A stretch of 64,000 nucleotides of DNA, from NCBI GenBank assembly GCA_026415355.1, contig JAOAHF010000002.1, positions 1 through 64,000 on the forward strand, written 5' to 3'. The notes beneath the pieces are model-generated. The model saw only the letters and a list, made by a program, of their open reading frames with translations, did no database searches and was not told the DNA's origin. Shown here piece by piece: positions 1,495-4,907 of the stretch. Origin of the DNA: Brevinematales bacterium. Lineage in GTDB: Bacteria; Spirochaetota; Brevinematia; DTOW01. How positions within the stretch are numbered: position 1 is the stretch's first letter; the number at the start of each line of letters is the position of its first letter. The position numbers and the translations under genes are program-made.

Positions 1495-2628
1495 ATGGTA
1501 GAGGTAAAAGTTTGTAACAACATAAACGAATTCATAAAGGTTCCCTTCTACATCCAAGGAGACGATCCTAACTGGGTTCCACCATTACTTATGGATATAA
1601 AGAGAAAATTAAACAGAAAAAAGTCTTCTTTCTTAAAACATAATGAAGCAGAATTCTTCATAGCATACAAAAATAATAATCCTGTAGGTAGAATAGCAAG
1701 TATACTAAACAATATACATAATCAAAGGTACAACAAAAAAGATGGTTTTTTTGGTTTTTTTGAGAGCATAAACGATCAAGAAGTAGCAAATGCTCTATTT
1801 GATAAAGCTGTAGAATGGTTAAGAAACAAAGGATTAAACACCATATACGGACCTGCTAATTACTCAACAAATGAAGAATGGGGATTACTAATTGAAGGAT
1901 TCGATACTCCTCCTTACATTATGATGCCACATAATCAAGATTACTATAAAAAACTTCTTGAAAACTATGGATTTAAAAAAGCAAAAGATTTGTACGCATG
2001 GTACTACGATACAACACTACCACTAGATGAAAAACTAATAAAACTTAAGGAAAAGATACTCAAAAGAACTAAATTCAAGATAAGAAATATAAATATCAAA
2101 GACATATGGAATGAAGTTGACAGAATAGTTGACATATACCACGACAGCTGGTCAGAAAACTTTTTTTTCATACCCTTAACTGAAGAAGATAAAATAGAAA
2201 TAGCAGAATTTCTAGTATCAATAGTTTATCCAGAATTAGTTATAATAGTAGAAAATGAAAATGGAGAGCCTGTAGCATTTTCTGCGGCAGTACATAACTT
2301 AAACGAAGTACTAATAAAATGCAGAAGTAAAAACTTAAACTTACTTTACATACAGCAACTACTATGCCTAGCTTGTAGATTATACCTAAAGCCTAAAAAT
2401 AAATTCAAAAGTGCTAGACTGCTACTAGCAGGTGTTAAAAAACAGTATAGAGGTCTCGGACTTGATCTACTACTATACATCACAAACTACGAAAACTCAA
2501 GAAAGATGGGTTATGAGTTTGGGGAATTATCCTGGACACTTGAAGACAATAGAATGATAAACGAAGGAATAGAAAAAATGGGTGGTAGAATACACAAAAT
2601 ATACAGGGTTTATTACAAAGATATATAA
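1495..2628 (+). CDS. BcerS-like GNAT-fold acetyltransferase
   Basis: The 377-residue soluble protein resembles the BcerS-like acyltransferase group, long proteins with a GNAT-type acetyltransferase fold of mostly unknown substrate. The N-terminus has the group's pattern of a short strand, a PNWVPP segment near residue 27 and PVGRI near residue 63. Around residues 118-130 is the YGPANYSTNEEWG stretch typical of the family, and the C-terminal part holds a GVKKQYRGLGLDLLLY acetyl-CoA-loop-like segment. A strong GGAGG ribosome site sits seven bases upstream of the ATG. It stands alone and runs into the convergent exported-protein gene with no gap. The family is probable; the acceptor molecule is unknown. 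Confidence 0.7.
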   Translation: MVEVKVCNNINEFIKVPFYIQGDDPNWVPPLLMDIKRKLNRKKSSFLKHNEAEFFIAYKNNNPVGRIASILNNIHNQRYNKKDGFFGFFESINDQEVANALFDKAVEWLRNKGLNTIYGPANYSTNEEWGLLIEGFDTPPYIMMPHNQDYYKKLLENYGFKKAKDLYAWYYDTTLPLDEKLIKLKEKILKRTKFKIRNINIKDIWNEVDRIVDIYHDSWSENFFFIPLTEEDKIEIAEFLVSIVYPELVIIVENENGEPVAFSAAVHNLNEVLIKCRSKNLNLLYIQQLLCLACRLYLKPKNKFKSARLLLAGVKKQYRGLGLDLLLYITNYENSRKMGYEFGELSWTLEDNRMINEGIEKMGGRIHKIYRVYYKDI

Positions 2629-3501
2629 TCAAAATACCATAGAAAGTCTTATAGATAAAACAGTCTTATTGTCTATAACATACAATTCTATAGGTACAGA
2701 AAACTCAAAATCGCGAATTAATGTTCTACTACTAATTCCTATCACAACAGCATAGCTACTAACAACTGAAAAATAACCACCAAGACCTACCCTTGCTCCA
2801 AACCAGTCAGAAAAATAATATAAAAAGTTATAAGTCCCAGCAACTCCCAATCCGAGTTTAGTAATAACAACACCAACCCCAAACTTTTCATAAAACTTTA
2901 TACTAAAATCAATACCATAATCAAAATAGTAGTTTAAAAAATCATAGCTACTACCCACATAAAAAGAAATCCTAAAGTTATTATTAGAATAATAAATATT
3001 CGTATCACTAACAGAAGTATAATTAGTTACATAAACAAAGTTTGTAACTACTACGCTAACCTCATTGGTAAGGGAATAATAATTAGTATAATAGTTAGTA
3101 AAGTAATTAGTTACAATAAAAAGACTTAAAGATTCTTTAGATAATTCCTTAACCTTAAAAGATTCCACAACAGTTTCTCCTAGAACAGTTCTAACTATAA
3201 CTCCATCTTTTGTTCTACCCACCTCAACTCCTTTGATACTCCTACCATCCATCTGTACCTCAACTACCTTTTCTGATATGAACTCTATAACAGCTATATT
3301 CCCCTCACTAAAATTAAGAATTCTACCATCATATGTCTTAAACGAAACTACTCCCCCTTTCTTTGAAAGCAACTTACCTTTAAATACTTCATTATTTTTC
3401 AGTATTAAAACATCAGAGAAAGCAGCATAACTAAATAAAAACAAACTAATCAGAATACTTAATTTTCTCAATATCTTTCTTGCTAAAACTTTTCCTTCCA
3501 T
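2629..3501 (-). CDS. Exported outer-membrane beta-barrel-like protein with TNY repeats
   Basis: The 290-residue product begins with a signal peptide (basic residues 9-13, hydrophobic 14-29). Residues 31-76 and about 82-118 are two related strand-rich modules of the form EVFKGKL...GGVVSFKT..GRILNF. Residues 131-172 are low-complexity, built from TNY/TNYY/TNF units. Residues 177-290 alternate aromatic and polar residues and end in Phe, as outer-membrane barrels do. It is the third gene of the sigma/anti-sigma operon and its start overlaps the anti-sigma gene by 56 bases. It is therefore probably an envelope protein tied to the stress response sensed by that pair. The ATG used here has an AGGA immediately before it; an in-frame TTG at codon 11 is an alternative. 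Function is otherwise unknown. Confidence 0.6.
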   Translation of the reverse strand: MEGKVLARKILRKLSILISLFLFSYAAFSDVLILKNNEVFKGKLLSKKGGVVSFKTYDGRILNFSEGNIAVIEFISEKVVEVQMDGRSIKGVEVGRTKDGVIVRTVLGETVVESFKVKELSKESLSLFIVTNYFTNYYTNYYSLTNEVSVVVTNFVYVTNYTSVSDTNIYYSNNNFRISFYVGSSYDFLNYYFDYGIDFSIKFYEKFGVGVVITKLGLGVAGTYNFLYYFSDWFGARVGLGGYFSVVSSYAVVIGISSRTLIRDFEFSVPIELYVIDNKTVLSIRLSMVF

Positions 3502-4216
3502 TCCTAGTTTCGAAAATTATAAAGTTGTCTTTTATTTCTATCAAATTACCCTCAAAAACTTCGCCACTCTTCAAATATATTTTATTTTGGTATAAACTTC
3601 CAGTGCTTTTTTCTAGCTCTTCACCATTAACCCAAACCTTGCCATTATCAATAAGAATTTTAACCTCACTTGCTTGAAACTTATAGACGATCCCTCCTAT
3701 CTTCAAAACAACTTCATTAAAATTTGAAGAAGGAATAAGCGCAAGATTCCCTTCAAAACCATCAGGAAGAGATATGATCAAAGAAGTACCATTCGAAGAA
3801 AGACTAACTTTATCAAGCAAAGACTTCTCACTCACATTACCTAATTCCAATAGACTACCAGCATATTTATAACTGTAAGTACTATTCAAGATATTAGAAG
3901 TAACTATGAACATTGTAAAAATAATAAGGACCACAGTCATACCTGAAAGTACTATAGAGAACAATCCCAACCTAGAGTTTAAAGATACATTTTCAGGATA
4001 CTTATCATCCTCATCTATCAAAGCCATCTTCTTAAACTGATAGAATTTTTCAAAAACTCTTGACCTAACATTACTTTCTATAGCCTCTATAGCTCTTTCA
4101 TCGACCTCATAGTTAAATGAATCGTACAAACTTTGACAATATTTACAATTTATGATATGACTCAAATCATTATCATCAAGCCCCAAAATCATCTTCTCTA
4201 TATCAACATGCCTCAT
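3446..4216 (-). CDS. Zinc-binding transmembrane anti-sigma factor
   Basis: This 256-residue protein sits two bases after the ECF sigma gene, with AGGAGG in the sigma gene's 3' end as its ribosome site. Residues 20-27 carry Hx3Cx2C (H20, C24, C27), the ZAS signature of anti-sigma domains that hold ECF factors inactive. One membrane segment spans about residues 85-107. The remainder should be periplasmic. Residues 214-256 form a GEVFEGNL...FETRNGRKSF module clearly similar to residues 31-76 of the exported protein encoded immediately downstream. The arrangement suggests an envelope-stress switch in which the sigma factor is released when the periplasmic domain senses a signal. The anti-sigma role is well supported by motif and context; the signal is unknown. 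Confidence 0.8.
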   Translation of the reverse strand: MRHVDIEKMILGLDDNDLSHIINCKYCQSLYDSFNYEVDERAIEAIESNVRSRVFEKFYQFKKMALIDEDDKYPENVSLNSRLGLFSIVLSGMTVVLIIFTMFIVTSNILNSTYSYKYAGSLLELGNVSEKSLLDKVSLSSNGTSLIISLPDGFEGNLALIPSSNFNEVVLKIGGIVYKFQASEVKILIDNGKVWVNGEELEKSTGSLYQNKIYLKSGEVFEGNLIEIKDNFIIFETRNGRKSFSKKDIEKIKYSD

Positions 4217-4218
4217 AC

Positions 4219-4731
4219 TTAACCTCCTGAAATTTTTGATTTTATTTCACTTATTACTCTCTTCAAAACTCTCTTGACAGTCCTCACACTACAACCCTCA
4301 AATTCAGCAATTTCTTCTATCTTGTATCCCTCGAGTCTAAAAATTATCATTTCCTTATCCCTATCTGGAAGAGAATCTATTATATCCATGATTTGTTCTT
4401 TCATGCTTTCACTATCATCATTATAACTAAAACTCTGGGTAATCTCTTCAAACATCTTTCTATCTCTTTTCTCTTTTCTCTTTCTATCCCTTATTATGTT
4501 GATTGCAGTTTTAAAAAGAAAACTTTTAAAGCTACCTCTGGGTGAGTATCTTTTGATGTTCTCCAAGAGTTTTACAAAAGTCTCTTGTACAACATCAACA
4601 GACATATCGACATCTCTAGTATATCTATAAACAAATTTTATGAGTAGTTTACTATACTTATTATAAAGCTCATTAAACGATTCTTCATCACCACATATTA
4701 TCCTGTATATCAACTCTGCTTCTGTATCCAT
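4219..4731 (-). CDS. ECF-family RNA polymerase sigma factor
   Basis: From the preferred ATG the product is 170 residues. Region 2 is seen in GDEESFNELYNKYSKLL and DVVQETFVKLL, and region 4 in SLPDRDKEMIIFRLEGYKIEEIAEFEGCSVRT, a helix-turn-helix for the -35 element. There is no region 1.1 or 3, as expected for extracytoplasmic-function factors. An in-frame ATG at 4788 would add 19 hydrophobic/aromatic residues not typical of the family, so the start at 4731 is favoured, although neither has a clear Shine-Dalgarno. It heads the sigma/anti-sigma/outer-membrane-protein operon and probably autoregulates it. The regulon is unknown. Confidence 0.85.
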   Translation of the reverse strand: MDTEAELIYRIICGDEESFNELYNKYSKLLIKFVYRYTRDVDMSVDVVQETFVKLLENIKRYSPRGSFKSFLFKTAINIIRDRKRKEKRDRKMFEEITQSFSYNDDSESMKEQIMDIIDSLPDRDKEMIIFRLEGYKIEEIAEFEGCSVRTVKRVLKRVISEIKSKISGG

Positions 4732-4907
4732 ATACTGATATGGTAAAGGAAAATAATAATATCTTAACACATAATTAAAACGAGTCATAAAATCAAAAAG
4801 TGTCAGAAAGAAAATCCAGAAACCATCAAAAACTTTTAAAACACCAGGACACTAAACCATAATAAAGTTTTACAATAAATCTCGCACTCTACACCAGGTA
4901 ACAAAAA

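Follow-up and report, generated by a model that had tools for sequence, protein, structure and literature searches.

Cell-surface signalling of the FecR type is known mainly with TonB-dependent transporters. In the FecI-FecR-FecA and PupI-PupR-PupB systems, an ECF sigma factor gene is followed by the gene of a single-pass regulator and then by that of the outer-membrane partner. The periplasmic part of PupR consists of a CJM beta domain and, after it, an STN subdomain, of which the signalling domain of PupB is a structural homologue (PMC7186176); the homologous domains stand at the C terminus of the regulator and at the N terminus of its partner. As for the direction of the signal, PMC11637429 reports that transducers bind the anti-sigma factor when no signal is present and shield it from proteolysis.

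FecR-like anti-sigma factors have also been described in Leptospira, where the papers on LIC12756/LIC12757 (PMC13118517, PMC12155086) describe no module in common with an outer-membrane partner. None of the TonB receptors of L. interrogans has a signalling N-terminal extension (PMC13118517), which leaves its FecR-like LIC12756 without a known outer-membrane partner.

Here we analyse a three-gene unit in a window of 64,000 nucleotides from a Brevinematales bacterium (contig JAOAHF010000002.1 of assembly GCA_026415355.1). It has the gene order of the Fec and Pup systems and, as in PupR/PupB, the regulator ends, after a predicted beta domain, in a domain that has a homologue at the N terminus of the partner. 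However, the shared domain is a predicted Sm/SH3-like barrel rather than an STN domain, and the partner is not a TonB-dependent transporter but a protein of 290 residues with tandem modules, which Fec/Pup partners lack, and a small barrel-like region of ~115 residues. Because the STN domain and the TonB transducer are both absent, we treat the unit as one that would work like cell-surface signalling without filing it as a member. Our literature search found no work linking an Sm/SH3-like module with FecR anti-sigma factors.

Results

Layout of the locus

The features of the operon, which lies on the reverse strand, are collected in Table 1. Its first gene encodes an ECF sigma factor with regions 2 and 4 (TIGR02937, 94.6 bits against a cut-off of 42.9). 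We place the start at MDTEAEL because the orthologue in the sister species G001 begins at the equivalent MENEAEL; the longer reading frame would run into the candidate promoter. The sigma gene adjoins that of an anti-sigma factor whose single membrane span was read from the sequence, the gene order of cell-surface signalling, and the anti-sigma reading frame in turn shares 56 overlapping bases with that of an exported protein. For the latter, the ATG at 3501 is backed by the orthologue in the second sister species, G003, and a TTG at 3471 is a possible alternative. A Pfam search returned no match in either the anti-sigma factor or the exported protein, and for the anti-sigma factor no FecR domain even at E = 10.

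Table 1. Features of the three-gene unit and its upstream region in window coordinates
Feature	Position	Strand	Basis or remark
Candidate ECF-type promoter of the operon, GACAC-N17-CGTT	4779..4804	-	Both elements invariant before the sigma gene of all three species
ECF sigma factor gene	4219..4731	-	Start MDTEAEL; longer reading frame reaches 4788
Single-pass anti-sigma factor, 256 aa	3446..4216	-	Follows sigma gene; H-x3-C-x2-C; one hydrophobic segment; same-place orthologues in G001 and G003
Anti-sigma H20-x3-C24-x2-C27, zinc-anti-sigma-like, predicted cytoplasmic	4136..4159	-	Sequence
Anti-sigma predicted transmembrane segment, residues 83-106	3899..3970	-	Hydrophobicity read from sequence
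Anti-sigma predicted periplasmic beta domain, residues 113-203, FecR/PupR-like by fold only	3608..3880	-	AF2 pLDDT ~75; Foldseek
Anti-sigma C-terminal predicted Sm/SH3-like module, residues 207-256	3449..3598	-	AF2; Hfq superposition; conservation
Exported protein, 290 aa	2629..3501	-	Reading frame; signal-peptide-like N terminus
Exported protein module 1, residues 30-74	3280..3414	-	Alignment, BLASTP, profile; AF2
Exported protein module 2, residues 77-120, diverged copy	3142..3273	-	Register with two-module proteins; AF2, same strand order
Exported protein T/N/Y-rich linker (TNYFTNYYTNYY...)	2977..3141	-	Sequence
Exported protein C-terminal predicted beta-barrel-like region, last residue F	2635..2976	-	Long predicted strands, low confidence; Foldseek

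Three further observations concern this neighbourhood. The H-x3-C-x2-C motif occurs in the anti-sigma factors of the window's genome and of G001 and is missing from the shorter G003 orthologue (L004 1468-2184). Within the window the exported protein is the only reading frame with a T/N/Y-rich linker; a linker of this kind, with TNYYTN repeats, also occurs in a lipoprotein elsewhere that is preceded by the promoter motif discussed below (L173 1-579, reverse strand). A GNAT-like acetyltransferase gene (1495-2628, forward strand) converges on the operon and keeps its position in G001 and G003.

Homology of the shared module

The initial annotation had matched residues 214-256 of the anti-sigma factor with residues 31-76 of the exported protein, and this match is real, with bounds that shift slightly to 207-254 and 26-74. 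The score of 71 in a local alignment of these segments compares with a mean of 24 for shuffled sequences (z = 9.2, 0 of 2,000 shuffles as high), which rules out chance or composition as the origin of the match. A BLASTP comparison of the full-length proteins has E = 2e-4, and the profile-profile comparison that had been proposed as a check, made with three-species alignments, finds homology beyond composition (probability 84%, E = 7.8e-6) over a region that is the module only. By this homology the regulator and its predicted outer-membrane partner have a candidate docking domain in common.

The second related copy that had been proposed in the exported protein (residues ~77-120) could not be recovered by pairwise comparison (z about 1), but an hhalign alignment that spans both modules places it in register with module 2 of two-module proteins found elsewhere among spirochaetes (E = 2.7e-8), and AlphaFold gives it the same strand order as the first.

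Across the three species the modules are the best-conserved regions of both proteins: in the anti-sigma module 52% of positions are invariant, compared with 12-15% in the rest of that protein, and 42-50% in the exported protein's modules against 17-25% in its other parts. Each module is far nearer to its orthologues in the other species (48-68% identity) than to the module of the neighbouring gene (23-33%), which makes the pair older than the genus.

Predicted fold and relatives in Leptospira

Searched against the PDB, the module profile finds Sm/SH3-like small barrels, led by the myosin N-terminal SH3-like domain (E 4.6e-5), with RNase P component 1 (0.004) and the Hfq-like MJ1435 as further matches. 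AlphaFold models the anti-sigma module as a five-stranded small barrel (pLDDT 90-96) with a short helix ahead of the last strand, as in Sm/Hfq proteins, and the model superposes on Hfq at about 1.1 A across 48 columns (Foldseek; VIA Z ~8). By profile and model, then, the module is an Sm/Hfq/SH3-like small beta-barrel. The likeness to Hfq/Sm and SH3-like proteins covers strand order and fold only, since the modules described here, unlike Hfq/Sm, are predicted to be periplasmic and are fused to a membrane anchor or a signal peptide.

For the exported protein the model gives module 1 at pLDDT 84-90, module 2 at 60-72 and then long strands of low confidence, for which the best Foldseek matches are the 8-stranded barrels NspA, Ail, PagL, OmpX and OmpA. 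Structure prediction, which had been suggested as a check for both proteins, thus yields Sm/SH3-like modules in each, and the exported protein is best modelled as two small-barrel modules followed by an 8-strand-like barrel, the latter with low confidence. The periplasmic part of the anti-sigma factor has PupR CCSSD (6ovk) as its best Foldseek match in the PDB (E 4.4e-3); the top 11 also include 4m0h, an anti-sigma factor of FecR type from Parabacteroides. We take the PupR match as suggestive, because it is a weak one, with TMq 0.39, and because no homologues went into the fold prediction of the middle domain; the match comes from Foldseek, the matches listed by VIA-align being Hfq and not PupR.

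Below their cut-offs, NCBIfam profiles point to relatives in Leptospira. The module resembles the N-terminal domain of exported proteins in two families, LA_0442/LA_0875 (NF047433; 26.6 and 31.0 bits for our two proteins, cut-off 43, which we regard as homologous) and LB_137 (NF047503; 17.2 and 33.1 bits, cut-off 200), where it takes the same N-terminal position as in our exported protein. It also resembles the C-terminal end of the spirochaete FecR-like LIMLP_03685 anti-sigma family (NF047528), whose profile ends in the module at positions 304-346 of 347. Our anti-sigma factor is not a LIMLP_03685 orthologue, because it reaches 20.1 bits against a cut-off of 200 and matches in the module only. 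No Leptospira member of NF047528 scored above cut-off among the genomes searched, and our literature search found nothing describing these Leptospira family names.

Linkage in close relatives and across Spirochaetota

In the 1.76-Mb genome that contains the window, the module profile is confident only in the two adjacent genes (E 7e-23 and 7e-21; the next match, a partial one, has 0.32), and in G001 and G003 it finds exactly two matches each, in the same two adjacent genes; these counts are to be read with a profile trained on these two copies, which very diverged copies such as module 2 escape. The profile search found no module in G002 or G004 (82-84% complete), nor did these genomes yield an anti-sigma relative or a full-length relative of the exported protein. 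A profile search with the anti-sigma alignment in collections of genome contigs and viral contigs likewise returned no relative. The three genes keep the same order in G001 and G003, and other families of the phylum show the linkage as well, so that the conservation of the unit in relatives, which had been named as a further check, holds.

To follow the linkage more widely, we surveyed 80 loci of FecR/anti-sigma-like proteins from Spirochaetota, in which genes were called and the module profile was iterated. A C-terminal module was present in 56 of the 76 anchored loci, a count biased by the way the loci were found, and a sigma gene lay directly upstream in 24 of the 76. When the anchor had the module, the next gene carried one too at 21 of 42 loci (12 of 18 when the anchor was also sigma-linked), compared with 0 of 11 when the anchor was without it. 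Among upstream genes only 6 of 323 carried a module, a contrast to 21 of 42 with Fisher p 1.6e-17, although the loci are not phylogenetically independent. The first, non-iterated profile reproduces the next-gene enrichment (p 1e-9), but with it the contrast between anchors with and without the module is not significant (p 0.21). The linkage of the module between neighbouring genes is not due to chance.

The partners are diverse. In a distant family, L007 repeats the whole arrangement, with an ECF sigma factor, a FecR-domain anti-sigma factor with C-terminal module and an exported barrel-like protein with N-terminal module. Barrel-like partners with one or two N-terminal modules occur at this locus and at L113, L079, L092 and L117; membrane-type partners of a PGWSG/PGWGQ kind have an N-terminal module at L051, L052, L055, L056 and L107; FecR-module lipoproteins are the partners at L085, L095, L104 and L109; and a four-module protein takes this place at L115 and L130. 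The pairing is wider than sigma switching, because some FecR-module proteins are lipoproteins without a sigma gene. At L079, L092 and L117 (also L131, L132 and L134), a FecR-domain lipoprotein with C-terminal module precedes a two-module barrel-like protein and there is no sigma gene. The third gene of the L115/L130 clusters encodes an exported protein of 239 aa with four tandem modules, 3' of two FecR-module proteins; it is a natural concatemer suited to structural study.

Over the phylum, the module is present in 112 of 296 Spirochaetota genomes at 1-19 copies each and in many protein architectures, usually directly after a signal peptide. Since some spirochaetes have up to 19 copies per genome, in many envelope proteins, the module is not specific to sigma switches.

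A candidate promoter and regulon

Upstream of the sigma gene in all three species, GWCAC and CGTT are invariant and exactly 17 nt apart, with spacers that differ. The pattern has one exact match in the window against 0.12 expected, and it resembles ECF promoters such as TGAAAC/CGTC. Genome-wide, exact GWCAC-N17-CGTT has 7, 5 and 8 matches in the three genomes, a number not above the reversed-pattern control; it is placement alone that stands out. A version relaxed by one mismatch was rejected, its matches falling mostly within genes.

In all three species the motif lies 23-26 bases 5' of the start of orthologous large lipoproteins (L153, L161 and L163) that have an alpha-amylase domain and, in the two species whose gene is readable in full (G001 and G003), starch-binding modules as well (Pfam 1e-45). 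The loci concerned are G000:C6:1878-1904 in the window's genome (L153/L177), G001:C123 (L163/L170) and G003:C8 (L161/L169), and the proteins that are full length, in G001 and G003, are ~1480-1490 aa long with Ig-like, GH13 alpha-amylase and CBM25/26/53 modules. The motif also lies 5' of an exported, beta-barrel-like protein of 182-186 aa in the window's genome and G001, and in G003 with an 18-base spacer (L175 2753-3313, reverse strand; L172 2077-2628; L169 9116-9664, reverse strand), and it precedes further lipoproteins at L155 and L159. By a Markov estimate, ~1.3e-4 matches are expected in each upstream region, or ~0.2 per genome at ~1700 genes, and each genome has 2-3 correctly placed sites other than that of the sigma gene. 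Because of this difference the regulon is well supported as a prediction, and we consider it likely, from motif placement, that these genes are controlled by the sigma factor.

Discussion

The observation from which this work began, that the anti-sigma factor and the adjacent exported protein share a module, is real and recurrent, and it is better supported than the initial annotation could know. Computation establishes the homology of the modules, their fold class, their conserved linkage and the promoter motif shared with other envelope genes, and we judge it probable that the two proteins are functionally linked. The annotation's idea of an unusual switch with one domain in both sensor and target was right as regards the shared domain; such sharing has a precedent in PupR/PupB, and the unusual features here are the type of domain and a partner that is not of the TonB kind.

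We propose, with moderate confidence, that the three genes form a switch resembling cell-surface signalling. In its predicted topology, the outer-membrane protein would present its N-terminal Sm-like modules in the periplasm, and the anti-sigma factor would expose its own Sm-like module, at the C terminus, in the same compartment on a beta domain resembling that of FecR/PupR. Being homologous, the modules of the two proteins could then dock in the manner of the STN domains of PupR and PupB, and we give direct docking as the signalling step about an even chance. A change in the outer-membrane protein, whether in ligand binding, folding state or abundance, would alter the module contact, the anti-sigma factor would be switched or degraded, and the freed sigma factor would act at GWCAC-N17-CGTT promoters to drive its own operon together with a small regulon of envelope genes. 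The predicted targets include the alpha-amylase lipoprotein with starch-binding modules and the small beta-barrel-like exported protein. By analogy, the shielding described in PMC11637429 may be one possible direction of effect for the present switch. Because the predicted targets include an alpha-amylase lipoprotein, the signal may be related to starch or maltodextrin.

The strongest alternative is that the module is a general envelope anchor of spirochaetes, for example to peptidoglycan or a common periplasmic scaffold, so that both proteins are co-located without contact and the exported protein is merely a target of the operon. Peptides and cell-wall material are common binding partners of SH3-like folds, and the distribution of the module over many architectures and more than a third of the Spirochaetota genomes, mostly after a signal peptide, is what such an anchor would produce. 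However, a general anchor does not predict that the sole confident copies in three genomes sit in adjacent genes and are lost together, nor a strong next-gene enrichment that depends on a module in the first protein, and we consider it unlikely. Local duplication, by which the exported protein's module was copied from the adjacent 3' end of the anti-sigma gene, or the reverse, would make the adjacency historical rather than functional. The overlap of the two reading frames fits such an event, and tandem duplication alone could explain the pairs elsewhere in which the downstream partner is a FecR-module paralogue; yet the pair in our locus is older than the genus, and many partners elsewhere carry the module at the opposite end of a protein body that is unrelated, which makes this account improbable. 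Least probable is the annotation's suggestion that sensor and barrel protein recognise the same small ligand or compete for it, with free ligand reporting the occupancy of the barrel: homologous domains could bind the same ligand, and a starch-degrading enzyme in the candidate regulon could supply it as product, but we found no conserved pocket or ligand-binding relative to support the idea, the solved structures closest by profile are small barrels with proteins or nucleic acids as binding partners, and the more natural role of an Sm/SH3-like barrel is contact with another protein, which favours direct docking over a common ligand.

Beyond this locus, we tentatively envision a spirochaete-wide class of transmembrane sigma switches in which an Sm-like barrel, common to FecR-type regulators and to outer-membrane partners of diverse structure, takes over from STN domain and TonB transducer as the docking joint in the periplasm and, here, would control a surface starch-degradation regulon; we hold this somewhat less firmly than the switch itself. 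If it is true, the design in which regulator and partner bear homologous docking domains has arisen from two unrelated folds. FecR-like anti-sigma factors occur in spirochaetes, Leptospira among them, and the shared module names the adjacent gene as a candidate outer-membrane partner; in systems like LIC12756, an adjacent module-bearing gene would be a candidate partner if LIC12756 carries the module. The shared module thereby offers a candidate contact surface, and the promoter motif a readable output.
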